64,000 nucleotides of DNA, taken from NCBI RefSeq assembly GCF_003315205.1, contig NZ_QNRR01000001.1, positions 1,116,001 through 1,180,000 of the forward strand, in the 5' to 3' direction. The notes below the pieces were generated by a model. That model did not search any database, had not been told where the DNA came from, and saw nothing but the letters and a program-made list of their open reading frames with translations. Shown in pieces: positions 16,595 to 35,361 of the stretch; the stretch's first letter is position 1, and every line of letters begins with the position of its first letter. Made by a program: the position numbers and the translations under genes. Source of the stretch: Roseimicrobium gellanilyticum. Lineage in GTDB: Bacteria; Verrucomicrobiota; Verrucomicrobiia; Verrucomicrobiales; Verrucomicrobiaceae.

Positions 16595-16924
16595 ATGTCA
16601 ACCACCCTTGCAGCCACCCTTGCAGTCCAGGCAACCAACCTTTCCCAGATCGGCGTCAAGCTGATGGCCGTCACGGCTCCCTTCCTTGCGCAGGGTGACC
16701 TGAAGGACCAGATGTCTGGTGCCCTCGGCATTCTGAACCTCGTCGGCCTGGTACTGGCCTTCGGCGGTCTTCTCTTTGCCGCGGTGATGTTCATGATGGG
16801 ACAGACCGAGCGCATGATTTACGGACTGGTCGGTGCCCTGATCGGCGGCCTCGCGTTCCTCATCGTGAAAGCCATGTTCGGCAGTTCCGATGCCAACGTG
16901 AACGACCTCGAACTCGGGTCCTAA
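16595..16924 (+). CDS. VirB2-like T4SS pilin candidate
   Basis: A 109-aa protein with two hydrophobic helices (about 46-66, ILNLVGLVLAFGGLLFAAVM, and 75-95, IYGLVGALIGGLAFLIVKAM) joined by a short polar loop MGQTER. This is the hairpin layout of VirB2/TrbC pilins. The N-terminal 35 residues, ending TAPFLAQG, could be a long signal removed near AQG. It is the first gene of the T4SS run, as virB2 usually is when virB1 is absent, and is followed by a strong hairpin at 16944-16984. Assignment rests on topology and gene order; sequence identity to known pilins is not obvious. Confidence 0.7.
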   Translation: MSTTLAATLAVQATNLSQIGVKLMAVTAPFLAQGDLKDQMSGALGILNLVGLVLAFGGLLFAAVMFMMGQTERMIYGLVGALIGGLAFLIVKAMFGSSDANVNDLELGS

Positions 16925-16943
16925 TCGGTTCCAGGGTGGTTCG

Positions 16944-16984
16944 CCAGCCAGAGTCCGCGTCATTCATGGCGTGGACTCTGCTGG
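16944..16984 (+). promoter_or_regulatory. Intercistronic hairpin after the pilin gene
   Basis: CCAGCCAGAGTCCGCG pairs with CGTGGACTCTGCTGG across a ten-base loop, with a single bulge and one mismatch. It starts 20 bases after the pilin stop and ends 38 bases before the VirB3-like start. There is no T-run, so an RNA-stabilising or processing hairpin, or a leaky attenuator, is more likely than a full terminator. Confidence 0.6.
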
Positions 16985-17022: not shown

Positions 17023-17418
17023 ATGGAAGAAGAGGCCAAGGTCCGCTATTACGAAACGAACGAGGGCCGGGAGGTCAGTCAGGGTTTCGCCGGCTTTCAG
17101 GGGAACAATGTTCTCCTGCTGCTCGGTGCTGTCGGGCTCTCGCTGATTCTTTCCCAAGGCGTGGACAACCTCGGTTACCCCATGGTGGTGAATATCATCA
17201 TCATGAGTCTCCCTGTGGTGGTCGTCTCCGCCTACGTTTTTGGCTTGAAGCAGGGCAAGCCCGTCTCCTATGATATTGAACTGGCCGAGTGGCTCATCAT
17301 CAAGCTCACCGGTCTGAATTACTTTTCTCCCAAACAGGTGGAGCAAATGAAGCTCCCCTGGCTGGAAAACATCAAAGCGCCGACCAGGAAGACCAGCAGC
17401 GATGGCAAAGATAGTTGA
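17023..17418 (+). CDS. VirB3-like small T4SS membrane protein
   Basis: A 131-aa protein with two adjacent hydrophobic helices (NNVLLLLGAVGLSLILSQG and YPMVVNIIIMSLPVVVVSAY, about residues 28-70) and a polar C-terminal tail ending in Lys/Arg/Ser. VirB3 proteins have this form and are encoded directly before virB4, as here; the two genes overlap by 17 bases. Known role of VirB3: an inner-membrane partner of the VirB4 ATPase. No detailed sequence match is claimed. In some systems VirB3 and VirB4 are fused; here they are separate but tightly coupled. Confidence 0.65.
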   Translation: MEEEAKVRYYETNEGREVSQGFAGFQGNNVLLLLGAVGLSLILSQGVDNLGYPMVVNIIIMSLPVVVVSAYVFGLKQGKPVSYDIELAEWLIIKLTGLNYFSPKQVEQMKLPWLENIKAPTRKTSSDGKDS

Positions 17419-20166: not shown

Positions 20167-20832
20167 ATGAAAGGCACCGCCCGAGTCCTGCTTCTCATAA
20201 TGCCCTTTTATTTCATCTCCTGCTCTGCTGATGGGGGGCCTTCCGGCGCTCTGGTAGGCCTGCTGACGGGCGGTGTGCTCGGAGCCGTGGGCGATGAACT
20301 GCGCAATGACGACGATGAGAACGGCAACTCCAGCGGCTTCTTCGGCGACAACAACAATAACAACAGCAGCAATAACGGGAACAACAACAACAACGGTTCC
20401 GGCAATGGTTCGGTGACGACGGTCACGGGCAGCAAGACCGATACGAATGGTGACGGTGTCATCGATGAAAACGATGCGTCCACCACGACGACGCTGGTCA
20501 ACAACAACGGGAACGGCAACAACAACGACGATGACCTCTTTGACAAGCATGGCGGCCTGATCACCGGCGCCATCGCAGGTGCGGCCGCGGGAGCCATCAC
20601 CGATTCCTTCCGCAAAAAGGAAATCCAGAAAAAGTATGACGAGGGCTATGCGAAGGCCAAGAGTGACTCCATCAAGGAGTTCTACTGGCTGAAGCGCGAC
20701 CTGCAGAAGACCATGAAGGATCAGGAGCCGCCCGTCCAATATCGCTACTACGAAGTTGAAGTTCCGGCCCATACCACGAGCGATGGTGTCTTGATCGACA
20801 AACATCGTCGCGTCATCGAGGTGGTTGAGTAG
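20167..20832 (+). CDS. Asn-rich glycine-zipper lipoprotein with a TSP3-like calcium loop
   Basis: A 221-aa lipoprotein: signal peptide with lipobox FISC, mature N-terminus at Cys19. Two glycine-zipper helices (GALVGLLTGGVLGAVGDEL and GLITGAIAGAAAGAITDSF) flank a low-complexity linker of Asn, Gly and Asp. Inside the linker at residues 92-103 is DTNGDGVIDEND, which fits the D-x-N-x-D-G-x-x-D-x-x-D calcium loop of thrombospondin type 3/dockerin-like repeats. The C-terminus is charged and ends in a beta-rich segment (QYRYYEVEVPAHT). It lies between the VirB4- and VirB5-like genes, where TrbK/VirB7-type lipoproteins can occur. Likely outer-membrane or periplasmic; the role in the machine is inference. 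Confidence 0.75.
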   Translation: MKGTARVLLLIMPFYFISCSADGGPSGALVGLLTGGVLGAVGDELRNDDDENGNSSGFFGDNNNNNSSNNGNNNNNGSGNGSVTTVTGSKTDTNGDGVIDENDASTTTTLVNNNGNGNNNDDDLFDKHGGLITGAIAGAAAGAITDSFRKKEIQKKYDEGYAKAKSDSIKEFYWLKRDLQKTMKDQEPPVQYRYYEVEVPAHTTSDGVLIDKHRRVIEVVE

Positions 20833-20878
20833 GGCAGGACAGTGCGTGCTGTTCAGTCAACTGTTCAAAAACCAAGCC

Positions 20879-21799
20879 ATGAAAACGTCCATTCTTACAT
20901 TGAGCGCCATGCTGGCTCTGCCCGGTCTCGGGTTTGCCGAGGCTGTCTATGACGCTGCCGTGGAACGGCAATTGATCGATGCCAATAAGAGTTTGACGAA
21001 CATCGATACACTCCTGGATTCCATCAACACGGCCATCGGCCAGCAGAAGGACGAGACCAAGGGGCTTCTGGAGGACATCAAAGAGGAAGCCAAGAAAACC
21101 ACGGAACGCCTGGACGATCTCCTGGAGCGCATCGGCAATCCCGCGGATGTGGACATCGGAGACAGGACGGACGAGCTCATTGAGCACGTGAACAACGCCA
21201 GGGACAAAGGTCTCGAGTTTCCCCGCCCGCCTGTGGAAGATCCCGATGATGAATTCTTCAATGACGACGGAGACGGGATGATCAAGTCCATTGGCACCGA
21301 GTATGAATATCAGCCGCCCGGTGGTGGCGATAAGCGGACCGAGCAGCGTGATCGCACAAGGTACATCGGGGAGGCGGAGCAGCTCAAGGCGATCAGGCAG
21401 TACTATGAAGTCCGTGATGCTGCCGTGGAGCGCCGTGCCGCGCTTCTGGACATCCTGGCTGACGTTCTTGATGACATGAAGGACAATACCGATGACTTTG
21501 CCAATCTCGCAAAAAAGACGGCTCTAGTAGAGGTCATTCAGGGGCAGCTTCAAGTTTGCAGCGATGACATCAACAACGCCTTCAACGACACGGCGGTGAA
21601 AGGACTTCAGGTGTATGCCTACAGCCAGGTCAGGTCGAAGGGGGATGCTGAACCCGCCCTTCTGGAAGCGGAAGAGCAGAAGGACAAGCTAGATGAAATT
21701 ATGACCGGCATCTCAGGTGGCGGACCGGCAATTCCTGCCCAGCCCTCGGGCGCTGCACCTGCGTTGGAAGGTTTCCTGCCCTGGCCTGTGCGCAGGTAA
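20879..21799 (+). CDS. VirB5/TrbJ-like secreted coiled-coil protein
   Basis: A 306-aa protein starting MKTSILTLSAMLALPGLGFA with a signal peptide cleaved around FAEA. The mature part is almost wholly helical: VERQLIDANKSLTNIDTLLD to LLEDIKEEAKKTTERLDDLL near the N-terminus and YYEVRDAAVERRAALLDILA further on, with a negatively charged non-helical insert between (PPVEDPDDEFFNDDGDGM). Helical, secreted and encoded just before the VirB6-like protein is the pattern of VirB5/TrbJ minor pilus-tip proteins. The frame is open 18 codons upstream to 20825, overlapping the lipoprotein stop, but the signal peptide fixes the start at 20879. Assignment by layout, not by sequence match. Confidence 0.65.
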   Translation: MKTSILTLSAMLALPGLGFAEAVYDAAVERQLIDANKSLTNIDTLLDSINTAIGQQKDETKGLLEDIKEEAKKTTERLDDLLERIGNPADVDIGDRTDELIEHVNNARDKGLEFPRPPVEDPDDEFFNDDGDGMIKSIGTEYEYQPPGGGDKRTEQRDRTRYIGEAEQLKAIRQYYEVRDAAVERRAALLDILADVLDDMKDNTDDFANLAKKTALVEVIQGQLQVCSDDINNAFNDTAVKGLQVYAYSQVRSKGDAEPALLEAEEQKDKLDEIMTGISGGGPAIPAQPSGAAPALEGFLPWPVRR

Positions 21800-21832: not shown

Positions 21833-22867
21833 ATGAACCTGTTTGTACTTGCCGTCGACATCATCCCTTATGGGATGTCGAACGACGACGTGAAGAACAA
21901 CTTCGCCGCCGCGCTCGCGACGCCATGCGAGCAGATTTATTATGTGCTGCGTCTGTTCACCGTGGCGCTTGCCTTCGCAGGGTTGCTCCAGGCTGCATAC
22001 AAAGTGCAGATGGGCGGCGACCTGTCCGGCTTGGGCACCCAGTTGATCATGACGGTGGTGGTGGCGGCGACCCTGGCGCTCGTGCCTCGTTGGATTCTGG
22101 ACGGCTACATTTTGCTTGGGCCCACTCTGGCGCAAGAGATCGGGGTAGATGTCGAGGGGGTGATGAATGATTTCCTCCGGATGATTGGGGAGAGCCTGGC
22201 GGTTTCCATCGGGTCCCAGGTGGCGAAGATGATGTTAGGTTTCCTATTCCTGGGGCTGATGTTCATCGGCTTCATTGCCATCATCATCATCATCATTGCC
22301 TTCGTCATTGCCATCATCATCTACGTGCTGGTGATTGTTGCCTACCTGTGCCAGATCGCGGCTGTCTATCTTGGCTTGACCATCATGCCGATTTTCCTGG
22401 GCATGCTGCTCTTCGACAAGACGCGGGAGACGGGCTTCAAGTATATCATGGGCATGGTTGGCGTTCTTTTCTGGCAGTTGGGTTGGGGTTTGGGTTTCTT
22501 CGTGATCAATGAAACGATTGGCTCGCTGAACGACTCTGTTACCAGTGTATCCACGCTGGGGGCCATCAACTTCGTGTTCGGCGGCATCGTGAGTGCAGCG
22601 CTTTGCCTGACCCAGGCGCTTCTGATGTGGGCGGTGCTCACCAAGGCGCCCAAGATCATCTCGGCAGCCATTGTCTCCGGCTCACAGATTGGCTCGGCCA
22701 TGGTGTCCGCGGGTGGCTCGACGATGATGGGTTTCACCTCAGGGGCTGCTTCAGGCGCTGCGCAAGTTGGCATGATGGTGGCGACAAGTGGGGCTTCTGC
22801 ACCGGCATCTGCCGGATCCGCAGCCAAGGGTGGAGCTTCGATCGGTAGTGGCGGTGGCGCCAAATGA
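21833..22867 (+). CDS. VirB6/TrbL-like polytopic T4SS membrane protein
   Basis: A 344-aa protein with about six hydrophobic helices. A periplasmic N-terminus with EQIYYVLRLFTVALAFAGLL is followed by a very hydrophobic Ile-rich stretch (IAIIIIIIAFVIAIIIY, encoded by ATC repeats near 22280), and the central W-Q-L-G-W-G-L-G-F segment is reminiscent of VirB6/TrbL. The tail is Gly/Ala/Ser-rich (about 290-344), common in TrbL proteins. Known role: an inner-membrane translocation-channel component contacting substrate. Position between the VirB5-like and VirB8-like genes agrees with the canonical order. Confidence 0.8.
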   Translation: MNLFVLAVDIIPYGMSNDDVKNNFAAALATPCEQIYYVLRLFTVALAFAGLLQAAYKVQMGGDLSGLGTQLIMTVVVAATLALVPRWILDGYILLGPTLAQEIGVDVEGVMNDFLRMIGESLAVSIGSQVAKMMLGFLFLGLMFIGFIAIIIIIIAFVIAIIIYVLVIVAYLCQIAAVYLGLTIMPIFLGMLLFDKTRETGFKYIMGMVGVLFWQLGWGLGFFVINETIGSLNDSVTSVSTLGAINFVFGGIVSAALCLTQALLMWAVLTKAPKIISAAIVSGSQIGSAMVSAGGSTMMGFTSGAASGAAQVGMMVATSGASAPASAGSAAKGGASIGSGGGAK

Positions 22868-22884
22868 TGATGGAAATATTCTGA

Positions 22885-23574
22885 ATGAAATCCTCCTCCG
22901 CACTTTTCATCAGCAAAGATGGTCTCGCGACCTTCTGGTTCCTGCTTGCCGCAGGTGCTGTGGTGGGGGCTGCCTTCTATGTGTACCGTCTTATCAACAA
23001 GACGGCGCTGCGCCCGCAGTACATCATCATGACCAACCCGGATGTGAAGCCGCTGAGCTTTGAGCTCGATCCGGCGAAGCTGGAGGTCCGGGACCGGGAC
23101 CAGACACGGCTGCTGCTGGACTCCGTATTCAACAAGTCTCCTTCCGGGCTGGATGCTGCTGATCGTTGCCGGCGCATGATGTCTGGCACGGCGTGGAAAT
23201 GGGTGCAGACCGAGTTGCTGGACAAGCAGAATGACGCTTTCCGGGACGGACAGATGCACCAGAAGATTGAGGTGGAGAGGATTGATCTTCGCAGGCTGCC
23301 GGAGCAGGGCGCCACCCTGGCCATGGTGAGCGGACAGTTGCTCCGCACCGGTATTCACGAGGGGAGACTCTTCAATGAAGTCTGGGCGGTGAAGGCGGAC
23401 ATCCTCTGGCTGCCCAATACGTCACTGTTGGAGCATGGACGCATTCCGATTATCTGCCACCGGTTCACCTGTCGGGAAACTCCCGTCGCATCCACGCTAC
23501 GGCGGACTCAGGAGGGCGCACCTCCGCTGCCACCTTCAACCAGCACTCCAGCTCCAGACGCCGCGCCCAACTGA
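22885..23574 (+). CDS. VirB8-like protein, first of three tandem paralogues
   Basis: A 229-aa bitopic protein: short cytoplasmic N-terminus, one helix (ATFWFLLAAGAVVGAAFYVY, about 14-34) and a periplasmic domain starting RPQYIIMTNPD. It shares with the next two genes the motif order F-W-F-helix, PQY, QTRL, H-Q-K-I and a final P-x-x-C. This copy is the most divergent: the Y-Y-L-x-P-S segment is replaced by SFELDPAK, and the C-terminal tail after ICHRF is different and Pro/Thr-rich. VirB8 proteins form the inner-membrane/periplasmic scaffold of T4SSs. It ends three bases before the second copy. Confidence 0.78.
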   Translation: MKSSSALFISKDGLATFWFLLAAGAVVGAAFYVYRLINKTALRPQYIIMTNPDVKPLSFELDPAKLEVRDRDQTRLLLDSVFNKSPSGLDAADRCRRMMSGTAWKWVQTELLDKQNDAFRDGQMHQKIEVERIDLRRLPEQGATLAMVSGQLLRTGIHEGRLFNEVWAVKADILWLPNTSLLEHGRIPIICHRFTCRETPVASTLRRTQEGAPPLPPSTSTPAPDAAPN

Positions 23575-23577: not shown

Positions 23578-24270
23578 ATGAAGTCCGTTGTCGATCTCTT
23601 CGTAGTCAAAGACCGCACCGCCATTTTTTGGTTTACTGTGGCGTGTGTCAGCATCGTCTGCAGCGCCATCTTCGTGCAGAGGGTGATCACCGCCGTGCAG
23701 GTGAAGCCGCAGTACGTCATCATGGACTCCACCGGCAGCTACTACCTGGCGCCGAGTGTGGAGTTTGAGAAGGCGCTTGAGCTCCACGCCGCGCAGACGC
23801 GCCTGGCCATGGAGACGCTGTACACCCGCGGCCCGGAAATGCTCACGTTCGAGTCCCGGTTGAAAAAACTCTTCACGCAGGAGGCCAACACCCAGATTCG
23901 CAAGGACCTCCTGAACCCGGATGAGAAGCCCTTCCGTGAACAGCAGATCCACCAGAGCATCCAAATCGAGCAGGCGGGCGTGTACAAGAATCTCATCGAT
24001 CCCCGTGGTCAGGCGGTCACGTTTGCCAAGGGAAAGCTGACGCGTGAAATCACGTTCAAGGGGCAGTCCAAGACGGAGGTGCTGGACGTGGAGGTGTATT
24101 TCTGGTGGCGCATCAACACCCGCATGGCGGACAACGGCTTGTTTCCCACGGTATGCACCAAGTTCAAGGCGTCTGATCCGAAGCGGCCTGGCGAGGTTGA
24201 CGCGGCGGCCGCGACCGCCTCTTCCTCGTCTGCCAAAAACTCATCCTCATCCGCGAAGTCCACCCCATGA
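23578..24270 (+). CDS. VirB8-like protein, second tandem paralogue
   Basis: A 230-aa protein with the same plan: helix IFWFTVACVSIVCSAIFVQ, then VKPQYVIMDSTGSYYLAPS, QTRLAMETLYTRGPEMLTFE, LFTQEANTQIRKDLL, QQIHQSIQIEQ and VYFWWRINTRMADNGLFPTV, then cysteine. It is clearly closer to the third copy than to the first. The last 30 residues are a low-complexity Ala/Ser tail absent from the others. The stop overlaps the start of the third copy (ATGA). Three different VirB8-like chains probably assemble together, since all are translated from one coupled message. Confidence 0.8.
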   Translation: MKSVVDLFVVKDRTAIFWFTVACVSIVCSAIFVQRVITAVQVKPQYVIMDSTGSYYLAPSVEFEKALELHAAQTRLAMETLYTRGPEMLTFESRLKKLFTQEANTQIRKDLLNPDEKPFREQQIHQSIQIEQAGVYKNLIDPRGQAVTFAKGKLTREITFKGQSKTEVLDVEVYFWWRINTRMADNGLFPTVCTKFKASDPKRPGEVDAAAATASSSSAKNSSSSAKSTP

Positions 24271-24884
24271 GAGCCGTCTCCCATCTGTTTCTGGCACGAA
24301 GCAGGGCCGCGGTATTTTGGTTCCTGGTGACTTGCGCCACGATTGGTGGCAGCGGGTACTATCTGCAGTCGCGCATCGCGGATGTGCGCACCCTGCCCCA
24401 GTACGTGTACACGGGTTCGCCGGACATGTATTACCTCACGCCGAGCCTGGACATCGAGACGCCGACGAAGATGCACCAGGCGCAGACCCGATTGGCCATG
24501 GAGACCATGTTCAACCGGGCTCCCTCACGGCTGGATCACCAGGAGAGGCTGCCCAAACTTTTCAGCTACGAGGCCACGCAGGACATCATCAAGGGCCTGA
24601 TTGTTCCGCAGGCCAAAAACTTCCATGAGAACAAGCTCCACCAAAAAGTGGAGATCGGAGAGATCATCGTGAACATCCAGGAGGGCCAGGGTGAGGCCAC
24701 GACGGTGGCGACTGCGCAGCTCGTGCGAGCCGGAGTGACGCCGGAGCAGACGATGATCAATGAAACCTGGTCGGTGAAAATTTTCTTTGAATGGCGCATC
24801 AACCCCGACATCGAAGAGCGCCCCCTGTACCCCACGCTTTGCAACAAGGTTAATTTATTCAGTATGGAAAGGACATTCCCCTGA
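24267..24884 (+). CDS. VirB8-like protein, third tandem paralogue
   Basis: A 205-aa protein: helix VFWFLVTCATIGGSGYYLQ, then LPQYVYTGSPDMYYLTPS, QTRLAMETMFNRAPSRLDHQ, LFSYEATQDIIKGLI, KLHQKVEIGEIIVNI and IFFEWRINPDIEERPLYPTL, then cysteine. It shares QTRLAMET, the Y-Y-L-x-P-S segment and the W-R-I-N segment with copy two. It lacks the low-complexity tail and is the shortest. The next gene starts on its stop codon (TGATG). The domain is about the size of the VirB8 periplasmic NTF2-like fold, but the fold itself is inferred. Confidence 0.8.
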   Translation: MRAVSHLFLARSRAAVFWFLVTCATIGGSGYYLQSRIADVRTLPQYVYTGSPDMYYLTPSLDIETPTKMHQAQTRLAMETMFNRAPSRLDHQERLPKLFSYEATQDIIKGLIVPQAKNFHENKLHQKVEIGEIIVNIQEGQGEATTVATAQLVRAGVTPEQTMINETWSVKIFFEWRINPDIEERPLYPTLCNKVNLFSMERTFP

Positions 24885-25975
24885 TGGATCTCCGACGCGC
24901 TGCATTCATCTTTTCCAGCCTCGTGCTGGGCGCCGTTCTCCCGCCGGCGTCTTTGCAAGGGCAGATTGCCCAAGGGCAGGAACTGATCACGTTGCCGGGA
25001 CGGGATACCATCCATGACCTCACGCTGAACACGCAGGTGGCCACCTCGGTGACCTTTCCTGCGGACATCACCCTGGTCATCGGTTATGGCCTGGTGCTTG
25101 ATGCCGCGGCGGCCCAGGGACTGATGGATGCGGAGGCGGTGGCTGCGGCCACGCTGAAGGATCTCGCGCCCCAACCGGTCACGATTGTGCACTACGCACT
25201 GGCGGCACGCGATACCCTGGTGATGCGCGCCATCCGGCGGGGCACGCCCTGCTACCTCACCGTGCGGTGCGGAGAGCAGATCTATCTCTTCAAGGTGAGT
25301 GCGGGAGACCGTGCCAATGTGGCTGTGCTCGTGACGGATGCCATCGGCTCCGGTACTGCCGTGGAAGTGGCCAAGGAAGACATCGTCAAATCACGCACCA
25401 ACTACAATTCCACGGAGTTGATTGGGATTCTCTCGCGGGCCAAGCAGCGTGACTTCCTGGAGTCGGTGAATCCCGCCCTCTATGAGGGATGGCATGAGCG
25501 GCGGGGCATTTCGCTGAGTTCGGAAAACGGCGGGCTGGTTTCCACCATCACGGAAATCCAGCAGTGGCCGCAGAAGGATGCGCTCGTCTTCCGCACCAAG
25601 ATTGAGAACAAGGGGGCGCACCGCCTGCGCTTCAATCCTTCCGATGTGAAGGTGAGGGCAGGGGATGCCAGCTACACGGCGCAGCTCGCGGACAGCAGTG
25701 GCGTGGTCGAGCCTGGACGCGTGACCTTGCTGGATCTCGTGGTGCAGGGGAATTCCTCCGGGGGGAAGGAACACCTGTCCATCAGCAATGACTTCCGTCT
25801 TGAAGTGGCCGTTGCGACCCAACCTCCGCCCCCGCCCAACGATTTGCTTCCGCCGCCCAATCCGCTTCTCCCCGCCTTGGAGAAGGGTGGCATGGCGCTC
25901 CCGCTTCCTGAAGTTTCCGCGCCCTCCAAGGACGAAATCCGGCTGCCTCTCCCAAATTTCTACGGCGGCAAGTAA
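24884..25975 (+). CDS. VirB9/TrbG-like periplasmic T4SS core protein
   Basis: A 363-aa secreted protein: signal peptide of about 27 residues, then beta-rich sequence. The segment IHDLTLNTQVATSVTFPADI resembles the start of VirB9/TraK/TrbG domains (leading to the TxxxFP strand), and a second domain has LVFRTKIENKGAHRLRFNPSDV, like the C-terminal beta sandwich that docks with VirB7/VirB10. The C-terminus is Pro-rich (QPPPPPNDLLPPPNPLLPAL). At 363 residues it is longer than typical VirB9 (about 270-300). Position between VirB8- and VirB10-like genes supports the call. One-base overlap with the preceding stop. Confidence 0.72.
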   Translation: MDLRRAAFIFSSLVLGAVLPPASLQGQIAQGQELITLPGRDTIHDLTLNTQVATSVTFPADITLVIGYGLVLDAAAAQGLMDAEAVAAATLKDLAPQPVTIVHYALAARDTLVMRAIRRGTPCYLTVRCGEQIYLFKVSAGDRANVAVLVTDAIGSGTAVEVAKEDIVKSRTNYNSTELIGILSRAKQRDFLESVNPALYEGWHERRGISLSSENGGLVSTITEIQQWPQKDALVFRTKIENKGAHRLRFNPSDVKVRAGDASYTAQLADSSGVVEPGRVTLLDLVVQGNSSGGKEHLSISNDFRLEVAVATQPPPPPNDLLPPPNPLLPALEKGGMALPLPEVSAPSKDEIRLPLPNFYGGK

Positions 25976-27274: not shown

Positions 27275-27294
27275 TGACCCATTTTGCATCATCC

Positions 27295-27984
27295 ATGAAA
27301 ACAACCTTTGCTCCCCTGGCTCTGCTACTCCTGGCGGCCTTGTCTTCGTGCGCCACAAAACCGGAGAAGCCCGAGGACGTGGCCTACGACGAAGATCTGG
27401 AGAACACCTTGCAGATTCCGAGCTACACCCGCACTGCGCTGGATGGCTGGCCGAAGGGGCGCCAGATTGATCCCTATGATGTCTCCCGCGTGCGCCATCC
27501 TGAGGAGGTGCACACCTATCACATCGGGCGCCTTCCCAGCCGTGATCGTCGTGAAATGCACGAGGCGCACACGGTTTATCGGGTGGAGCAGGACGCACGG
27601 TGGGATCAGCGCCTGCCTGCCACGCCCATGGCCTCCCGTGGCGTGGTGCTGGGCATTCGTGAGCCCGAGCATGATCCTGTGCCCAAGGATACCGTGGTGA
27701 ATGCGGAGCGCGTGCGCCAGATCGAGCTGAGCGCCCAGCTGGAGAAGCGCGTGGCCCTGCTCAGGGACAAGCAGGAACAGATTGAGGCCTTCCTGGCTAC
27801 TGCGCCGGACAAGAACAAGACCATCGCCGAACTCCAGCAGCAGAATGCCAAGGCCCAGTCGGATCTCAGTGCCCTGAAGGAAGAACATCGCAAAGCGCAG
27901 GATGAACTGCGTGAAATCAAAGAACGCCAGGCTATGGAAGAAGCTCTGAACAGGAGCATCAAAGACGCGACAAAGAAACCATGA
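27295..27984 (+). CDS. T4SS-locus lipoprotein with C-terminal coiled coil
   Basis: A 229-aa lipoprotein (MKTTFAPLALLLLAALSSC gives a clean signal and lipobox; an alternative start seven codons upstream overlaps the VirB10 stop). The mature N-terminal half is acidic or neutral and unmatched; residues about 145-229 are a long charged coiled coil (QIELSAQLEKRVALLRDKQE to KEEHRKAQDELREIKERQAM). It is translationally coupled to the AAA+ gene (ATGA overlap at 27981). A lipoprotein after VirB10 could play a VirB7-like stabilising role, but it is far larger than VirB7 and the coiled coil suggests a scaffold or periplasm-spanning part. Function unknown. Confidence 0.72.
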   Translation: MKTTFAPLALLLLAALSSCATKPEKPEDVAYDEDLENTLQIPSYTRTALDGWPKGRQIDPYDVSRVRHPEEVHTYHIGRLPSRDRREMHEAHTVYRVEQDARWDQRLPATPMASRGVVLGIREPEHDPVPKDTVVNAERVRQIELSAQLEKRVALLRDKQEQIEAFLATAPDKNKTIAELQQQNAKAQSDLSALKEEHRKAQDELREIKERQAMEEALNRSIKDATKKP

Positions 27985-28910
27985 AGTGGCACATCACATT
28001 GCCCCCCACCACAGATCACAAGAGCCGTCTTCGTGATCTGCCTGCCTATTTGGAAGGCAGGATCATTGGCCAGGACCACGTCATTCCCAAGGTCGTCCCC
28101 ACCCTGCAAAATGGGGAGCTGGGCCTTTCGGATCCCGGTCGTCCCAAGGGTACCTTCCTTTTCCTGGGACCCACCGGTGTGGGCAAGACGGAAATCACCC
28201 TCTTGATGTGCCAGTATCTTTTCGGCGATGTGGAGAAGCACTGCATCCGCCTGGACATGTCCGAGTATCAGAACCAGGAGTCCCTGCAGCTTCTGCTCGG
28301 ACAAGGTGAGAACAGCCGTGGCAACATGGGCCGGTTCTTTGATCGTGCGGAGGGCAGGGGATTCATCCTGTTCGACGAAATTGAAAAGGCGCACCCCCGG
28401 GTGCTGGACATCTTCCTGCAAGTGCTGGATGCCGCCCGCATCACCGTGGCCAATGGTGAAACGCTGAACCTTTCCGAGTTCTACATCGTGGCGACCACGA
28501 ACATCGGCGCCGACGTGCTGATGGACGTGAAGAGCAGCAGCATCACGACGATTGAGCGATTCATCGAAGATCTCGCTGCGGCAGAGCTCCGTCCTGAAGT
28601 GCTGGCGCGATTCAATGTGCGTTGTGTTTTCCAACGCCTCAGTTACAACGCGCAGAAGCAGATTGCCGGGATCATGCTGAACAAGGAATTGAAGCTGCTC
28701 GCCTCCAAGGGCCACAACCTCACCTTCGGAAAAGGGGTGCTGGAATTGCTGGTGGCGGAGGGCGTGGAGCCCCGGCTGGGCGCCCGACGCATGCGCACCA
28801 CGGTTGAAAGTCACTGCCGCCACGCAGTACGCGAGGCGATGCTCCAAGGCAACGCCACCTCAGGCGAACTCACTGTAGTCAATGGGAAACTGGTCATACA
28901 GAGCACGTGA
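27981..28910 (+). CDS. Single-module ClpB/ClpA-D2-like AAA+ ATPase in the T4SS operon
   Basis: A 309-aa AAA+ protein equal to the second ATPase module plus C-terminal lid of ClpA/ClpB: Walker A GPTGVGKTE at about 63-71, Walker B FILFDEIEKAHPRV at about 127-140, sensor 1 IVATTNIG at about 169-176, arginine-finger segment RPEVLARFN near 204, sensor 2 GARRM near 267. There is no N-domain, first ATPase module or middle coiled coil. Where ClpB-D2 has the substrate-threading G-Y-V-G loop, this protein has LGQGENSRGNMGRFF, so the pore tyrosine is missing. The gene overlaps both neighbours. Inference: a dedicated secretion ATPase, perhaps acting where VirB11 would. Confidence 0.88.
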   Translation: MKWHITLPPTTDHKSRLRDLPAYLEGRIIGQDHVIPKVVPTLQNGELGLSDPGRPKGTFLFLGPTGVGKTEITLLMCQYLFGDVEKHCIRLDMSEYQNQESLQLLLGQGENSRGNMGRFFDRAEGRGFILFDEIEKAHPRVLDIFLQVLDAARITVANGETLNLSEFYIVATTNIGADVLMDVKSSSITTIERFIEDLAAAELRPEVLARFNVRCVFQRLSYNAQKQIAGIMLNKELKLLASKGHNLTFGKGVLELLVAEGVEPRLGARRMRTTVESHCRHAVREAMLQGNATSGELTVVNGKLVIQST

Positions 28911-29118
28911 GCTATGGGAACTCCACAAGCGCGAGATCAAGCGATATGGCATCTGTGCCTGGGTTTTGATCATCGGCGTGGTTCGCGAGAAATGGTTTCT
29001 CGCGTGGGGAGCTCTCGGCGCCGCGGCGGTGATGTACTGCTACGACCGCTGGTGGAAGCCGTGGGCCGACCGGGTTCTTGCAGCGGCTGGAAAAAAGACT
29101 GACAACGACGCCTCATGA
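28882..29118 (+). CDS. Small T4SS-locus membrane protein
   Basis: A 78-aa protein overlapping the end of the AAA+ gene by 29 bases and the next lipoprotein by four. It has an amphipathic, charged N-terminus (NWSYRARELWELHKREIKRY), one or two short hydrophobic segments (ICAWVLIIGVV and FLAWGALGAAAVMYCY) and a Lys/Asp tail. No family recognised. The tight overlaps on both sides and the hydrophobic profile argue that it is real. It may anchor the AAA+ ATPase to the membrane, which is inference from adjacency. Confidence 0.65.
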   Translation: MGNWSYRARELWELHKREIKRYGICAWVLIIGVVREKWFLAWGALGAAAVMYCYDRWWKPWADRVLAAAGKKTDNDAS

Positions 29119-29447
29119 CTCCCAGAACTTTTCTTACCCTCACTGCCTGCCTGTTGCTGGCCTCCTGTGGCACCTCCAAGACGAACCGCACGTCCATCAT
29201 CACAGACGTCATTCCGGCTGGTTCCCGAATTGAGTATTACGGCCAGATTCATGGAGATACGTGGCTGCCCACGATGGTGCAGACCAGCATCCCAAGTCCC
29301 ATGCCGGTGAAGGAAGCGCAGCAGTGGGCCCTCAGCGCCGCCCAGCAGCGCCTTGGAGATAAATGGAAAGATTACCTCTTTCGCGTAACTGCCCCTGGCG
29401 AAAAGCCGATCATATTGTGGCAGAGACGCAATCACGTGCAGCTCTAG
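29115..29447 (+). CDS. Small T4SS-locus lipoprotein
   Basis: A 110-aa lipoprotein with lipobox LASC at residues 15-18 (MTPRTFLTLTACLLLASC). The mature part is about 90 residues with alternating beta-type sequence (SIITDVIPAGSRIEYYGQI, YLFRVTAPGEKPIILWQ). The size is near that of VirB7-like lipoproteins of some T4SSs, though no N0-like match can be claimed. The ATGA overlap with the preceding gene shows coupling. About 35 bases separate it from the coiled-coil gene. Confidence 0.7.
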   Translation: MTPRTFLTLTACLLLASCGTSKTNRTSIITDVIPAGSRIEYYGQIHGDTWLPTMVQTSIPSPMPVKEAQQWALSAAQQRLGDKWKDYLFRVTAPGEKPIILWQRRNHVQL

Positions 29448-29483: not shown

Positions 29484-31091
29484 ATGGCAGCAGAAGACGC
29501 CGGCGAAGAATTCACGGAAATGCTCTCCACAATTGGGCAGAACGTGCTTGCCCTGGTCAGGACGATCAGAGAGGAAAACAAGAGGAGAGAGGCGCAGAAG
29601 GCCGCCATGGAGAAAGACCGGCGCTCGGAGGAAATGGCGGAGCAACGCCGCATGGAGGACCGTGAGTTCTTGAAGTCCGAGAATGAGAAGATGCGCTCCG
29701 AATTGCGCGACATTCTCAAGGCCAATGGGATGGAGACTTCTGACAAGAATGTCGATCTCGCCCAGGGAGTGGCGGAGAAGATGAAGGACAACCAGTCCCA
29801 GATCGACTCCAACTTGTCTCAGATCGATGCCAACCAGTCCCAGATCGACGCCAATCTCTCCAAGATTGATGCCAACAACAAGGCCATCGGAAGGCTGGAC
29901 GATCAGATTAAAGGCATCGGTACGGGACCCAAGGATCAAGGGTCGATCGACCAGTTCACGAAGATGCGGACTGAGTTGACTTCGATGAACTCGGAGCTGA
30001 TGCAGCAGAACACGGATCTCGCGAAGAAGAACACCGATCTGGGGCAGAAAAACCGGGAGCTGGAGGCGAGCAACATCATGCTCAAGAACGGCAAGGGATT
30101 GGAAGGGCTTGAGACTGACCAATCCGTCCGGCAGAACCTTGCGAAGCAGCTTGATCAGGTCAATGCAGGTATCGCGCTCGACAACAAGAACCTCAACAGG
30201 GTCAACGGACGTCTCTCGGAAATCGAGGATGCGCAGAAGAAGGCGTTGAATCCTTCCGACGGTTCTCTGCCCAAAATGGATGCGTGGGAGAAGCTGCAGG
30301 CTGAAAAGCTGGATTTGCAGAAGGAGAAGGAGGGACTTCAGAAGGGACTTGCCCAAAAGCAGGATCAGCTCAAGGGACTGAAGGAGGGCAAGAGCCTGGA
30401 ACAGCTTGAGAAGGCCGCCAAGTTGGAAGGCCAGATCCGCCAGGCCCAGGAGAAGGTGCAAGGCATCGACAACGTGCTCCAGGGGTACAAGAAGAACGAA
30501 GCGGCAATTCTCGACAAGCACAAGGAGATCCTCAAGACGCCAGGCAAGAACTTGGAGCAGTCGGACTACGACGAGCTGTCGAAAATCCGCGCCAAGATGA
30601 AGCCATTTGAAGACGAGAAGGCGGCTGCCCAAAAGGATGTCGTCAAACTCCAGGAGGAGCTCGACGGGGTCAAGAATGGTCCCAAGGTGGAAGGAGCGAA
30701 GGTGGATGCTCCGAAGACGGAGGGTCCCAAAATGGAAGGCACGGGCAAGATGGTCCAGGGACCCGGTGGTGGAATCACTTCCCCGGGTGTGCCCATGGAG
30801 CTTGAGTCTGCGCCCAAGCAGGTGTTGACGAGCCCGTCCATTTCGCAGACTCCGGATCTCACCCTTGATGGCGTCGGCGTGGGCGGATCTTCTGTTGGCA
30901 AAGAAGCTCCCAAGGTGGGAGAAGGGCGGCAGCGTGCCAAATCAGTGGGCGACAAGCCCGACAATGGCAAGCCGCTGTCCGTGAGAGAAGAGCTGGCCAG
31001 ACGAGGAGAAACCACCGGTTATGAACTGGAAAAGATGGGCCTGAAACAAGGCCAGCCCAAGCAACAGGTCATGAGAATGAAGGGCGGCTGA
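29484..31091 (+). CDS. Large coiled-coil protein of the T4SS locus
   Basis: A 535-aa hydrophilic protein without signal peptide or membrane helix. Residues about 20-410 are almost continuous coiled coil, including four perfect heptads of the type S-Q-I-D-x-N-x (residues 105-132), then KKNTDLGQKNRELEASN and long Lys/Glu/Gln blocks. Residues about 410-535 are Pro/Gly/Lys-rich and unstructured, ending QVMRMKGG. No family recognised. Lying between machine components and the coupling protein, it could be a cytoplasmic adaptor, a filament or a T4SS substrate; a basic, flexible C-terminus is what VirD4-dependent substrates often have. The function is not established. Confidence 0.78.
   Translation: MAAEDAGEEFTEMLSTIGQNVLALVRTIREENKRREAQKAAMEKDRRSEEMAEQRRMEDREFLKSENEKMRSELRDILKANGMETSDKNVDLAQGVAEKMKDNQSQIDSNLSQIDANQSQIDANLSKIDANNKAIGRLDDQIKGIGTGPKDQGSIDQFTKMRTELTSMNSELMQQNTDLAKKNTDLGQKNRELEASNIMLKNGKGLEGLETDQSVRQNLAKQLDQVNAGIALDNKNLNRVNGRLSEIEDAQKKALNPSDGSLPKMDAWEKLQAEKLDLQKEKEGLQKGLAQKQDQLKGLKEGKSLEQLEKAAKLEGQIRQAQEKVQGIDNVLQGYKKNEAAILDKHKEILKTPGKNLEQSDYDELSKIRAKMKPFEDEKAAAQKDVVKLQEELDGVKNGPKVEGAKVDAPKTEGPKMEGTGKMVQGPGGGITSPGVPMELESAPKQVLTSPSISQTPDLTLDGVGVGGSSVGKEAPKVGEGRQRAKSVGDKPDNGKPLSVREELARRGETTGYELEKMGLKQGQPKQQVMRMKGG
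29796..29879 (+). repeat. Four 21-bp in-frame tandem repeats (coiled-coil heptads)
   Basis: Four consecutive 21-bp units encode SQIDSNL, SQIDANQ, SQIDANL and SKIDANN inside the large coiled-coil gene. The third base varies between units, so the repeat is under protein-level constraint and is not a very recent slippage product. One unit equals one heptad, so gain or loss of units would keep the coil in register. Confidence 0.85.
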
Positions 31092-31155: not shown

Positions 31156-31704
31156 ATGCCTAGCGTACGGGATACCCTGAAGAGCATGCTCGCTGGCCGG
31201 AAGGGCCAGCAGGAGCAGCAGCAGGGTGTGCAGCAAGGCGAGGGCGGGCCCGACCCTCTGGCGACCAAGACCGATGAATCTCTGGCTGCCGAGCAAGGCC
31301 AGGGACAGGGGCAGGACCTGCTGGCGGCACGCATGAAAATGGTCGCGGAGCAGCGTGTGGCGCTCGCCCAGGCGGAGATGAAAAAACAGGAACAACACCT
31401 GGAGCAATTGCAGGACCAGTTGAAGGAACTGACCAAGCAAGGTCTGCCTCCGGGACGTCTCACGGATGACATTGATCAGGCCACCCAGCGCCTGAACGAA
31501 GCGAAGGCGGAGTTCTCCCGCGCGAATGAAGCCAAACAAAACACAGACCTTACCAGCAGCCTGCGTCAGGATTCCAAGGATGGCAGCATGGACCTTGGTG
31601 GGCAAAGTGTCCGTGACAAGCTGGGCGGCCCCACGGGTGGTCCCAAGCTGGGCGGGGATGAAGGCATGGAGGCACGGGCGCGCATCTCACCACGGCACAG
31701 ATAA
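31156..31704 (+). CDS. Small coiled-coil protein of the T4SS locus with Arg-rich tail
   Basis: A 182-aa soluble protein. The N-terminal 60 residues are Gln/Gly-rich (GQQEQQQGVQQGEGG); a coiled coil spans about 55-135 (MKMVAEQRVALAQAEMKKQE, then ATQRLNEAKAEFSRANEAKQ); a Gly-rich C-terminal part ends MEARARISPRHR. The terminal cluster of arginines resembles the positively charged C-terminal signals of VirD4-dependent substrates. It begins 64 bases after the larger coiled-coil gene and is likely co-transcribed. No family recognised; like its neighbour it may be a substrate, adaptor or structural coil. Confidence 0.7.
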   Translation: MPSVRDTLKSMLAGRKGQQEQQQGVQQGEGGPDPLATKTDESLAAEQGQGQGQDLLAARMKMVAEQRVALAQAEMKKQEQHLEQLQDQLKELTKQGLPPGRLTDDIDQATQRLNEAKAEFSRANEAKQNTDLTSSLRQDSKDGSMDLGGQSVRDKLGGPTGGPKLGGDEGMEARARISPRHR

Positions 31705-31788: not shown

Positions 31789-33537
31789 ATGATTTCCCTC
31801 CTGAAGAAAAGCATCCAACACGAGCGGCCGTGTCTTCCCGGCCTCGTGATGACGGTGCTTTTTCTGTCGCTGCCGAATCTGGTGGCCGTGTTCTGGCCGC
31901 GGGTGGACCAGCATCATGTGGAGAACTTCTGGCTGGGCGTGGGCATCCTGCTTGCGCCGTGTCTTTTTTCCGTGAGTGTGCGGACGGCCTTGCGGCTGTG
32001 GCTGCCGCTGGCGGCCTTCCTGCCTGCATTGATGGCGTATCATTTCGTGACGGGCGAGCCGGTGCGGGAGTGGGCCTTCGTGGTGCTGGGCGAGACAGAT
32101 GCGAGTGAGCTGGAGAGGTTCTGGGCACCGGCGGTGCTGGCCGTGCTGGCAGCTCCCTGTGCGATGGCGTTTCTCTGGTGGTTCACCGGGCGGCACGTTC
32201 CGGCAGGGCACCGCCTGGGGTGGCTTGCACGTGGTGTGGTGATGGTTTGCCTCGTGGTCATGCCGCTTGGCCAGATGGTGTTTGGCGGATGGGGGTTGGG
32301 CGGACAGGTGGCCGTGAAGCGACTGGCTACGACCTTCCCTGCCAATCTTCCGGTTTCTGCCTGGCGTGCCTGGGAGATTCACGATGACTTCGCGGGAAGG
32401 ACTGCTGTGGCTGAGCGCATGGAGGTGAAGTCCGCGCCGCTGGGTGACCGTGAGATCTATGTCCTGGTGCTGGGCGAATCCGCGCGGTTCGACAGCTTTC
32501 AAATCCACGGGTATGCGCGGGAGACGACACCCCTTCTGGCGAAGATGTCGGGGCTGTTGAGCTTTCAAGATGTCGTGGCGCCTGCGCCGGTCACCTCGAT
32601 GAGCGTCCCTTTGCTGCTGACGCCGGCGAACCCAGAGCATCTGCGTGCAGCTGCGTCCCTGCCAAGTGTGGTGAGCATCTTCCGGCGGGCGGGATTCCAC
32701 ACCGCATGGTATTCCACGCAGAGAAAGCATGGCATGTATGACACAGCCTCGTCCGTGTTTGCCCGCGACGCTGAAGAATCAAGATTCCTCAGCGGTACCT
32801 TCGCTCCCGGGAATGCGCGCTATGCCTCTGCGTATGATGGCAACTTGCTGCAGCCGCTCAAGGAGCTGCTCGCGACGGGACACCGCCGTCTTTTCATCGT
32901 GCTGCACACCATGGGCAGCCACCAGAACTACGCGGATCGCTATCCGGCTGAGTTCAACCATTTCCCGGCCGAGCGTCAGGACATCGCTTCGCGTCCCTTT
33001 GTGCGGGCCCTGACTGGGGAGCAGCGAGAGCATCTTTCCAATGCGTATGACAACTCCATCCGCTACACGGACTGGTTTCTGGCCCAGGTCATCGAAACGC
33101 TGAAGCAGGCAAACGCGGTCTCCATGATGCTGTATGTGTCCGACCACGGGCAGAACAAGGGGGATGCGGAGACGCTTCCCTTTGCCCACGGAAACCTCAC
33201 GCCGGAGGTGATGCACATTCCCATGCTGGTGTGGCTGTCGCCCGAGTACCGCGCGCAGCGGCAGGAGCAGACGATGCAGATGGAGTCCCATGTGGGCACG
33301 CCCTTCACTGGTTCGGCGGTATTCCATACCATGGTGGATGCCGCGGCGTTGCAATGTGATGCGCTGGACCTGCGATTGAGCGCGGCGAGCCCGCAGTTCC
33401 GTCCGGGTCCGAGGTTGCTAAGGAACCTGAAAGGTGAGCTGGTGGACTATGACACGCTTCCCGTCGTGCTGAATGCAGGCAAGTCGGCCACGCTGGGAAT
33501 CTCTGCAGGAACCAACATCCATTCCGTACCGCGATGA
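31789..33537 (+). CDS. EptA-like phosphoethanolamine transferase (sulfatase fold)
   Basis: A 582-aa membrane enzyme: about five N-terminal helices (to about residue 180), then a periplasmic alkaline-phosphatase/sulfatase-fold domain. VLGESARFDSFQIHGYARET with E230 gives the metal site; the likely nucleophile is Thr269 in APVTSMSVP; YVSDHGQNKGD supplies further metal ligands. Layout and motifs match EptA/OpgE/CptA-type enzymes that transfer phosphoethanolamine from PE to lipid A or glycans. The frame is open from a TTG at 31747, but ATG 31789 fits better. Its position between the T4SS coiled-coil gene and virD4, same strand, is unusual; it may modify an envelope component there or be an unrelated insertion. 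Confidence 0.85.
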   Translation: MISLLKKSIQHERPCLPGLVMTVLFLSLPNLVAVFWPRVDQHHVENFWLGVGILLAPCLFSVSVRTALRLWLPLAAFLPALMAYHFVTGEPVREWAFVVLGETDASELERFWAPAVLAVLAAPCAMAFLWWFTGRHVPAGHRLGWLARGVVMVCLVVMPLGQMVFGGWGLGGQVAVKRLATTFPANLPVSAWRAWEIHDDFAGRTAVAERMEVKSAPLGDREIYVLVLGESARFDSFQIHGYARETTPLLAKMSGLLSFQDVVAPAPVTSMSVPLLLTPANPEHLRAAASLPSVVSIFRRAGFHTAWYSTQRKHGMYDTASSVFARDAEESRFLSGTFAPGNARYASAYDGNLLQPLKELLATGHRRLFIVLHTMGSHQNYADRYPAEFNHFPAERQDIASRPFVRALTGEQREHLSNAYDNSIRYTDWFLAQVIETLKQANAVSMMLYVSDHGQNKGDAETLPFAHGNLTPEVMHIPMLVWLSPEYRAQRQEQTMQMESHVGTPFTGSAVFHTMVDAAALQCDALDLRLSAASPQFRPGPRLLRNLKGELVDYDTLPVVLNAGKSATLGISAGTNIHSVPR

Positions 33538-33801
33538 CACCATTCGTCACTTATTTTTCACCGTGTCCGGCTGGAGAAAAGCGGGCTGGGCACGCCTGCC
33601 TGTCTGCCGATTTTTCCAGCAGGATCTTGCCGGATTTCGCCGATACATCCATGATGGATGCCTCTCCCCATGCCGGACGGACTCACACGTCCCACGGCAT
33701 TGAAAGCCCAATGAGCACAGCGCGATTTCGGTGCCCCGTGGAATAAGAATGGCTAGTCACCTCATTTCACTTCAGCAACTTGCGTCTTCCCTGAACATCC
33801 C

Positions 33802-35361
33802 ATGTTAGCACTATTCCGTCTCCTCATCGCCGCCGCAATCGCCCTCGCCGGCTTTTGGTACGCCCTGCAGTTCGAAGGTTATCAAGGCGTCGTGGATGGC
33901 AAATCGATGTACGTGAGAGAAGTGGCCACTGCGAAGGTGGTGTCCGTGGCGCAGCCGGTGGGTGCGGCTGCGGGGGCTCTTCTTCTTGCGTTGGTGGTTT
34001 TGCGGTGGAACCCCGGATTCTTCAAAAAGGAGGAGTACATTGTGAGGTACAAGCACCTCAAGTGGAAGCCGGGCGAGTTTACACGTCACTGGCTCATTAC
34101 GGGGGACACGGGGGTGGGTAAGACGACCTCCGGATTCAATCCACTGCTGCACCAAATCAGCGTGGCCCGGCCCAACTGGGGTGGCCTGGTGCTGGGTGCA
34201 AAGGGTGACGAACATTTCACCGCCATCGAGCACGCGAAGGGTCACGGCAGACCGGAGGCCATCTGCGTGCTGGAAGTGCGACCTGAGCGTGGGATGACGG
34301 ACTGGAAACCCAAGCAGCGCTACAACCTCATCTCAGACAAGCGACTGCCCTACAACACGCATGCCAAGAACCTGGTGGACACGGGTGCCTCGGTAACGGG
34401 TGGTGAGCAGAGCTCCTTCTTCAAACCCGCGGCGCAACAGGCCATCACCTCCGCGTGTGAATTGCTTGAGACGCTTGGCAAGCCTGTAAACCTCAAGCGT
34501 GTGTACCTGTGCTTGTGCGACAAGGGGACCATGGAGAGCTTGTTCGAAGAATTGCTGGATGCTGACAGCAATGAAGACCGCATCCGTCTTGCGAAGTACT
34601 TTGACCAGACCTTCCTCTCCGCTGCCGCGGCTGAGCAGAAGGAAGGTATCATCGGTACCATCAAGGTGTATCTCGGATTCTTCATGGACGCGGACGTGGC
34701 TGAGGTCTTCTGTTCCGATGAACCGAATACGATTGAGATTTCGGACGTGGACAAGGGGCGGGTGCTCTGCACTGCCATGCCGCAGACCTTCCAGACGGAG
34801 CGTCGTTACATCAATACCTACATCAAGCTGCTCTTCTACACGCATGCGATGATGCGCTTCGACAAGCCGAAGGCGCAGCGCAAGGGCGAGAACCTGTTGC
34901 TGGCGGTGCTGGACGAATTCCAGGCGCTGGCCACGGCGAACGAAGATGGTATCTCTGACCACAACGTGATTGACCGTCTGCGTGCCGCGAACTGCTGCCT
35001 CATCCTGGGCATGCAGTCGGATGCCTCGCTCTTCCCTGTGCTGACCAAGGAGAAGGCGCAGGTGCTCACGCTGAACTGCCGTTCGCGTATTGCCTTCCGT
35101 CAACCCGACCCTGAGGGCGCCCTGGCCGTGGCAGAGTTCATCGCCAAGGTGGAGCAGAAGAAGGTGTCGAAGAGTTCAGGCTTGTTTGGCAGCAACGCCA
35201 GCAAGACCGTGAACAAGGAATGGGACTATGAAGTGCAGCCCGGCGAACTCATGAAGATGGGGGATGCGACTGCGTGGATTGTGCATCCGTCCAAGGACAA
35301 GGTGAAAATGCGCATTCCCCCGATGGACGGTGCGGGCAAGATTCCGGATTGGTGGAAGTAA
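33802..35361 (+). CDS. virD4: VirD4/TraG-like type IV coupling protein
   Basis: A 519-aa ATPase: two N-terminal helices (LFRLLIAAAIALAGFWYAL and PVGAAAGALLLALVVLRW), then the TraD/TraG core with Walker A ITGDTGVGKTTS at about 97-108 and Walker B LLLAVLDEFQALA at about 363-375, followed by NCRSRIAFRQPDPEGA and a C-terminal tail ending KIPDWWK. It recruits substrates and feeds them to the T4SS channel. It is shorter than most TraG proteins, and the all-alpha domain between Walker A and B is present (VTGGEQSSFFKPAAQQAITS). A 264-base gap with no other gene separates it from the EptA-like gene. Confidence 0.93.
   Translation: MLALFRLLIAAAIALAGFWYALQFEGYQGVVDGKSMYVREVATAKVVSVAQPVGAAAGALLLALVVLRWNPGFFKKEEYIVRYKHLKWKPGEFTRHWLITGDTGVGKTTSGFNPLLHQISVARPNWGGLVLGAKGDEHFTAIEHAKGHGRPEAICVLEVRPERGMTDWKPKQRYNLISDKRLPYNTHAKNLVDTGASVTGGEQSSFFKPAAQQAITSACELLETLGKPVNLKRVYLCLCDKGTMESLFEELLDADSNEDRIRLAKYFDQTFLSAAAAEQKEGIIGTIKVYLGFFMDADVAEVFCSDEPNTIEISDVDKGRVLCTAMPQTFQTERRYINTYIKLLFYTHAMMRFDKPKAQRKGENLLLAVLDEFQALATANEDGISDHNVIDRLRAANCCLILGMQSDASLFPVLTKEKAQVLTLNCRSRIAFRQPDPEGALAVAEFIAKVEQKKVSKSSGLFGSNASKTVNKEWDYEVQPGELMKMGDATAWIVHPSKDKVKMRIPPMDGAGKIPDWWK

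Follow-up and report, generated by a model that had tools for sequence, protein, structure and literature searches.

A chromosomal type IV secretion system without a relaxase in the Verrucomicrobiaceae is probably dedicated to protein export

The genome of Roseimicrobium gellanilyticum (G000; 7.93 Mb in 32 contigs) contains a single-copy, chromosomal locus for a type IV secretion system (T4SS). It lies in the 64,000 nucleotides that we analysed (bases 1,116,001-1,180,000 of contig 1, NZ_QNRR01000001.1; hereafter, the window). We consider it likely that this is the relaxase-less T4SS of one clade of the Verrucomicrobiaceae, which arose from a conjugation machine of the MOBF type and is now dedicated to protein export. 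By the published definition (a VirB4 cluster without a nearby relaxase; PMC3158045), the locus is a MOBless and putatively protein-exporting T4SS. A survey of secretion systems in diderms knew protein-exporting T4SSs for MPF_T and MPF_I alone (PMC4793230), and Verrucomicrobia go unmentioned in a 2025 review of T4SS diversity (PMC12857230). Our literature search found no report of a T4SS in Prosthecobacter.

From the sequences, we infer how the system might work, from recognition by VirD4 and translocation to kinase activity and target cells. The VirB2-B10 proteins would form a channel across the envelope, with VirB4 and VirD4 as its motors. A ClpB-type AAA+ protein, which the conjugative relatives already have, may replace VirB11 or act as a chaperone that prepares substrates. 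VirD4 would recognise its substrates by a C-terminal SV(R/G)(E/D)xL element with a basic, Gly/Pro-rich tail. The predicted substrates are coiled-coil and other proteins encoded beside VirD4 or behind the channel operon, along with PI3/PI4-kinase-like enzymes encoded there or at unlinked sites. Their destination would be other cells, with eukaryotic microbes as the most likely targets. In the most likely working of the system, VirD4 would direct motif-bearing proteins to the VirB channel for export. We have only even confidence in a more specific proposal: an exporter that arose in free-living Verrucomicrobia independently of those of MPF_T and MPF_I, is energised by VirB4, VirD4 and the ClpB-type AAA+ protein instead of VirB11, has arches built from three VirB8 paralogues, and uses the SV(R/G)(E/D)xL signal to send PI-kinase-like and RGS effectors into protist hosts or grazers.

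Subunits and distribution of the system

All of the genes that an earlier note on this DNA had listed are present, in the order and at the coordinates that it gave (Table 1). We scanned 20 proteins of the locus with Pfam, which confirmed VirB4, VirB10 and VirD4, as the note had recognised from motifs, and a ClpB-type AAA+ ATPase (D2-small, 8e-11; other E-values in Table 1). For the other subunits, whose divergence puts them beyond the reach of Pfam by itself, we built iterative profile families from about 40 related loci of the class. Members of these families match CagX/VirB9 (13 members, 1.2e-7), TrbL/VirB6 (9 members, 6.4e-7), the T4SS/VirB5 model TIGR02791 (2.6e-9), and TrbC/VirB2 (6 members, 1.9e-5). 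Weak matches of relatives (to DUF4133 and PrgI), together with its position, suggest the identity of VirB3.

The B8 proteins of the locus do not match Pfam's VirB8 model. An AlphaFold model of B8b (22 sequences; predicted local distance difference test (pLDDT) score of 82) has CagV, IcmL/DotI, TraM and the VirB8 of R388 as its leading matches in PDB (probability 1.00, best E 1.1e-3). The model of B9 (pLDDT 69) matches VirB9-class proteins of the F plasmid, X. citri, Dot/Icm and R388 (best E 5e-12). Thus, the tentative assignments of VirB2, B5, B6, B8 and B9 in the earlier note, which rested on topology and gene order, are borne out by family profiles, and for B8b and B9 by their folds as well. 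With a VirB4-class ATPase, VirB6, B8, B9 and B10 channel subunits, and a VirD4-class coupling protein, the locus is a type IV secretion system.

By Pfam, none of the locus proteins is a VirB11 (T2SSE), a lytic transglycosylase (VirB1) or a relaxase, which agrees with what had been read from the sequence. Nor do any of them match the F-specific TraF, TraH, TraU, TraW, TraN or TrbC_Ftype. The window's VirB4 does not match the CagE family (PF03135). By sequence, the locus falls outside MPF_T and MPF_F as tested, and nothing points to MPF_I.

Few proteins of the locus are as well conserved as the AAA+ ATPase (74-81% identity to Prosthecobacter and 45-49% to conjugative relatives), which is found in relaxase-less and conjugative systems alike, including the plasmids described below. 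Its profile matches the D2 module of ClpB at 2e-70. In the alignment, the protein retains Walker A, Walker B and both sensor motifs (1 and 2), but the segment that in ClpB D2 bears the aromatic GYVG pore loop is without it. ClpB/ClpC D2 modules and the ClpV of type VI secretion share these four elements and the D2-small domain; the window's protein differs from them in having a single AAA module, no N-domain and a replacement for the GYVG-type pore loop. It may be a non-canonical motor or chaperone and a possible stand-in for VirB11. Because the F plasmid and Gram-positive systems also do without VirB11 (PMC12857230), its absence alone is not new.

Of the 286 genomes that we sampled from the class, 54 have a homologue of this VirB4, as do two plasmids from Opitutaceae. 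The homologues are of two sorts: those that are at least 75% identical to the window's VirB4, which we will call clade A, and a conjugative sort (about 25-40%). Clade A is restricted to the Verrucomicrobiaceae (the Prosthecobacter/Brevifollis clade), where VirB4 identifies 24 genomes; the named relatives are from Prosthecobacter, Brevifollis and other Verrucomicrobiaceae. Across these 24 genomes, VirB4 is 75-96% identical, its frame is open without internal stops, and gene order matches, as the earlier note had suggested looking for. Counting G316, a 1,230-contig assembly in which VirD4 alone was found, 25 of the 68 genomes of the family are T4SS-positive, with the caveat that absence calls in fragmented metagenome-assembled genomes (MAGs) are uncertain. 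Presence and absence both occur within three genera (g3, g140 and g141). The number of VirB8 copies varies: one in the conjugative relatives examined, two in Prosthecobacter, and three in the window's genus and some neighbouring genera.

Descent, and absence of a relaxase

In all ten of the conjugative-sort genomes that we searched, a TrwC/MOBF relaxase is encoded on the same contig as VirB4, roughly 4-42 kb away, and a ParA-like gene is often beside VirD4. In a tree of VirB4, clade A is one group (Shimodaira-Hasegawa-like approximate likelihood ratio test, 100), and it is nested among relaxase-bearing systems if the tree is rooted on the TAV5 plasmid. That root is a single long-branched row, and the placement of clade A by G180 and G253 involves long branches and is unsure. 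With that root, these sequences show clade A to descend from the class-wide MOBF conjugation systems of Verrucomicrobia.

The conjugative systems (those of the TAV5 plasmid CP007054 and the T. mucosus plasmid NZ_CP109797, and chromosomal copies) have homologous VirB2-B10, the ClpB-like AAA+ and VirD4, and we noticed no VirB11 in them. They have a MOBF relaxase, usually a ParA-like gene by VirD4, and one VirB8. In contrast, clade A has no relaxase, two or three VirB8s, a pair of genes for a protein kinase and an extracytoplasmic function (ECF)-like sigma factor, a cyclic nucleotide (cNMP)-binding protein, and motif-bearing accessory proteins. Our search of plasmids found the two verrucomicrobial plasmids and weak TraC matches. 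The Opitutaceae plasmids (L044, L045 and L046) encode divergent members of this T4SS family with a MOBF relaxase and the AAA+ protein; in the T. mucosus record, many genes are split, which looks like the result of frameshift errors. Also, G330, a member of the family without the clade A system, has at least four conjugative-sort VirD4 genes.

Searches for MOBF, MOBP, MOBQ and MOBH relaxases (PF08751, PF03432, PF03389 and PF07514) found no match anywhere in G000 or in G340, which is a complete, single-contig genome from the same genus. There were none in the T4SS-positive genomes G139 and G299 either. We saw no VirB11 or relaxase in 40 kb on either side. Together with the fold matches of B8b and B9, this means that neither outcome named in the earlier note as refuting its reading came about. 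There is no tRNA gene in the window; the gene calls of the 40 kb flanks were read by eye, and the upstream side is shared with G340, where about 30 genes are in the same order.

The system is not one linked block that moves as a unit. In G139, VirD4 and its neighbours are on a different contig than the channel operon, and the contig ends put at least about 240 kb between them; in G299, the distance is about 100 kb. In every well-assembled case, VirD4 and the channel operon co-occur. Because an integrative and conjugative element (ICE) cannot stay functional as two distant pieces, it is simpler to suppose that both are kept by selection for a chromosomal function. The earlier note had offered two readings, a machine for protein secretion or an integrated element whose relaxase lies elsewhere. 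The first is supported. The second, an ICE whose relaxase would lie beyond the window, is ruled out by the searches for the four relaxase families and by the unlinked VirD4.

Separate loci in several Prosthecobacter-clade genomes (L257, L258, L259 and L260), far from the T4SS, encode a MOBF relaxase of about 1,100 amino acids with its own VirD4-like gene. L259 and L260 also have a ParA-like gene. These loci are probably a mobilisable element.

Candidate substrates and alternative explanations

The proteins encoded beside VirD4 and behind the channel operon vary, frequently contain coiled coils and are otherwise not related to one another, yet many of them carry SV(R/G)(E/D)xL, usually 25-60 residues before the C-terminus. 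A strict form of the motif is present in the last 90 residues of 33 of 69 candidates and of 5 of 1773 background proteins; shuffled tails gave 0.2 on average.

Several of the large accessory proteins share a domain with a weak match to PI3_PI4_kinase. DRHxGN and GIDND-AFP are invariant in 11 aligned members, which therefore have the DxHxxN catalytic loop and the activation-loop Asp of PF00454. Using a profile of the core only, without the tails, we found this family in 20 of the 68 genomes of the Verrucomicrobiaceae: it is present in 20 of the 25 T4SS-positive genomes and missing from all 43 that are T4SS-negative. The distance between a kinase gene and VirD4 is about 5 kb or less in 13 genomes; in the others, the kinases are elsewhere. 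For instance, G000 has three copies, all unlinked and on other contigs, which score 27.7, 27.8 and 35.0 bits (the PF00454 cut-off is 27.1). All six kinases from G000 and G340 have the tail motif. These six are a cleaner test of the motif, because the motif was defined on part of the scored set and the core profile is blind to tails. A sequence search of PDB with the kinase profile gave weak matches to SMG1 on the catalytic loop alone, and outside the family, we found only weak, distant relatives.

In a pond MAG (G290), the protein encoded between a VirD4-linked kinase and the cNMP gene contains an RGS domain (1.7e-14; L199:1923-3776, JAIYDW010000218.1), with weak matches to RGS4, RGS7 and RGS8. 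RGS is a domain of eukaryotic G-protein signalling. Most Prosthecobacter genomes also encode small Asp-rich proteins behind the T4SS operon or near VirD4 (L052:10798-11121, L057:3836-4171, L061:9662-10027 and L150:7188-7466); these have repeated LDxDxDID-type motifs that resemble calcium-binding motifs, and an SVGxAL-type tail.

Several observations weigh against dedicated export of these proteins by the T4SS. The set on which the motif was scored includes the proteins in which we had first noticed it, and half of the candidates lack its strict form. A genome-wide search with a profile of the motif found CC1 alone (the profile is too short for discovery). The co-occurrence of kinases and T4SS (hypergeometric 6e-13) ignores shared ancestry, so that value is inflated, and the near-complete, T4SS-positive genome G139 has no match to the kinases. 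The relaxase searches covered four families out of a larger number (MOBV, MOBC and MOBT are among the others). Finally, non-flagellar type III secretion systems (NF-T3SS) are present in members of the family, and two divergent DRHxGN proteins (G299:C20 and G319:C631; L251:6-1463 and 8706-11082, and L255:9760-12150) adjoin genes for CesT-type chaperones.

Among the alternatives, the one that fares best, though we think it unlikely, is an antibacterial T4SS like that of Xanthomonas, whose effectors would be toxins for competing bacteria. Protein-exporting T4SSs with bacterial targets do exist (as in X. citri). However, we noticed no immunity-like partners beside the kinases (we did not search for them systematically), and domains of the PI3/PI4-kinase-like and RGS kinds indicate signalling in eukaryotes, for which Risk1 of Rickettsia is a precedent (PMC7298712).

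It is slightly less likely that the kinases are effectors of type III secretion and that their link to the T4SS is incidental. P. vanneervenii carries NF-T3SS genes (PMC9380563), and of the two DRHxGN proteins by CesT genes, G299:C20 (L251) is also near SctT/SctU-type genes. These two, from the same kinase superfamily, may be effectors of type III secretion. However, they have no tail motif, they are below the PI3_PI4_kinase threshold, and they match the family profile weakly (6e-11 and 3e-13, versus 1e-75 or below for the rest). The main group of kinases is beside VirD4 in those 13 genomes, and its tail motif is common to non-kinase proteins of the T4SS loci, whereas the signals of type III effectors are N-terminal. 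Kinases of one fold may serve two injection systems, and for any single kinase, we retain type III secretion as an alternative.

Another idea, which we consider improbable, is that this T4SS is conjugative or mobilising: having lost the relaxase once linked to it, it would act in trans as the channel for MOBF elements that some clade A genomes have elsewhere. Indeed, G119, G124, G268 and G307 encode, at an unlinked site, a MOBF relaxase of about 1,100 amino acids with a VirD4-like gene nearby, and two of them also have a ParA-like gene. But these elements have their own coupling protein, and the T4SS-positive genomes G000, G340 (which is complete), G139 and G299 have none of the four relaxase families. 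Service in trans would also leave the co-inheritance of the kinases and their common C-terminal motif unexplained. That the locus is what is left of an ICE, decaying or cryptic, fits its patchy presence (43 of the family's 68 genomes lack it), but is very improbable given the intact VirB4 frames, identities and shared gene order in 24 genomes, the co-inheritance of the unlinked VirD4, and the expansion of VirB8.

Gene content, known systems and implications

The system is larger than first described (Table 1), as it includes the cNMP-binding protein and a Ser/Thr kinase/ECF-like sigma factor pair, which flank the operon in relatives. In most Prosthecobacter loci, this pair lies immediately upstream of VirB2, whereas in G288 and the window's genus it adjoins the cNMP gene; this arrangement suggests dedicated regulation of the T4SS. 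The EptA-like gene, which the earlier note had counted in its lineage-specific set, is at this spot only in the window's genus, and we dropped it as a core part. The note remarked that several parts have no counterpart in the classical VirB/D4, Tra or Dot/Icm sets; this is true of the accessory lipoproteins, the coiled-coil proteins and the ClpB-type AAA+. Chance open reading frames are ruled out, as every operon gene that we tested has homologues in about 33-47 loci. A scan for promoters gave no more than the chance level, and there are 29 terminator-like sites where 15.5 are expected. Just upstream of VirB2, a protein resembling the pseudopilin G of type II secretion is encoded on the reverse strand (window 15903-16370); it is conserved beside the locus in the window's genus.

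Table 1. Genes of the T4SS locus, with positions in the window
Feature	Position	Strand	Evidence
VirB2-like pilin	16595..16924	+	small, two transmembrane segments; relatives' members match TrbC/VirB2
VirB3-like	17023..17418	+	between B2 and B4 in about 41 loci; relatives match DUF4133, PrgI weakly
VirB4 ATPase, 897 amino acids	17402..20095	+	TraG P-loop 3.6e-13; homologues in 54/286 genomes of class
Lipoprotein LP1, glycine zipper	20167..20832	+	conserved in family
VirB5-like, start uncertain	20846..21799	+	relatives match TIGR02791 VirB5 2.6e-9, PF07996
VirB6-like polytopic membrane protein	21833..22867	+	TrbL 0.0075; relatives 6.4e-7
VirB8 paralogue a	22885..23574	+	same family as B8b
VirB8 paralogue b (B8b)	23578..24270	+	AlphaFold (AF2) model matches VirB8 folds
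VirB8 paralogue c	24267..24884	+	same family as B8b
VirB9-like	24884..25975	+	fold match to VirB9-class proteins; relatives match CagX
VirB10	26003..27274	+	TrbI 6.5e-11
Lipoprotein LP2, coiled coil; candidate VirB7 or pilotin	27274..27984	+	kept after VirB10 in about 33 loci
ClpB-D2-type AAA+ ATPase, 309 amino acids; aromatic pore loop 1 missing	27981..28910	+	AAA_2 1e-29; profile vs ClpB 2e-70; alignment
Small membrane protein SMP	28882..29118	+	kept after AAA+ in clade A
Lipoprotein LP3	29115..29447	+	conserved in clade A
CC1 coiled-coil protein, C-terminal SVREEL motif; candidate substrate	29484..31091	+	
CC2 coiled-coil protein, C-terminal SVRDKL motif; candidate substrate	31156..31704	+	
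EptA-like membrane sulfatase-fold enzyme; genus-specific insertion, non-core	31789..33537	+	Sulfatase 6.5e-47
VirD4 coupling protein	33802..35361	+	TrwB_AAD_bind 3.2e-13; co-occurs with clade A VirB4
cNMP-binding protein, VirD4-linked in clade A	35663..36091	+	PF00027 6.1e-20; synteny
Ser/Thr protein kinase, putative regulator	36338..38746	-	Pkinase 1.5e-50; by ECF-like gene and VirB2 in Prosthecobacter loci
ECF-like sigma factor, putative regulator	38795..39568	-	Sigma70_ECF 4.6e-4; directly upstream of VirB2 in most relatives

Protein exporters of the MPF_T type (X. citri, Bartonella and the rvh system of Rickettsia) resemble the window's system in having VirB2-B6, B8-B10 and VirD4 and no dedicated relaxase. 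The window's system differs in that it lacks VirB11 and VirB1, has the ClpB-like AAA+ and three VirB8s, and has a different tail motif; also, most of its subunits are below the Pfam cut-offs of MPF_T-type families. Like F-type systems (MPF_F), it has no VirB11 (PMC12857230), and the best match of its VirB9 model is an outer-membrane core subunit of the F plasmid, but it has no F-specific genes by Pfam, an extra AAA+ and no relaxase. With Dot/Icm (MPF_I), it shares the presence of more than one VirB8-class protein, and Dot/Icm has a large set of effectors with eukaryote-like domains, including the PI4-kinase LepB. Unlike Dot/Icm, the window's system has a VirB/Trb-like core instead of the Dot/Icm gene set, and no DotB-type ATPase. 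By analogy, the closest functional parallels would be Rickettsia Risk1 (pfam00454), a PI3-kinase effector that was identified through VirD4 and is delivered to the host (PMC7298712), and Legionella LepB, the Dot/Icm PI4-kinase cited in the same study.

If our proposal of a dedicated protein exporter is correct, then this is a further independent conversion of conjugation to protein delivery, and its conjugative relatives are still found in the same class. The conversion would be open to stepwise study: the relaxase would have been lost, VirB8 duplicated, and regulators gained. The tie between a ClpB-like AAA+ and these T4SSs raises the question of what replaces VirB11, and the proposal yields a testable secretion signal and a family of candidate effectors. 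It would also mean that Prosthecobacter-like bacteria, which are free-living in water and soil and are regarded as harmless, may interact with eukaryotic cells and inject proteins into them, probably into protists.

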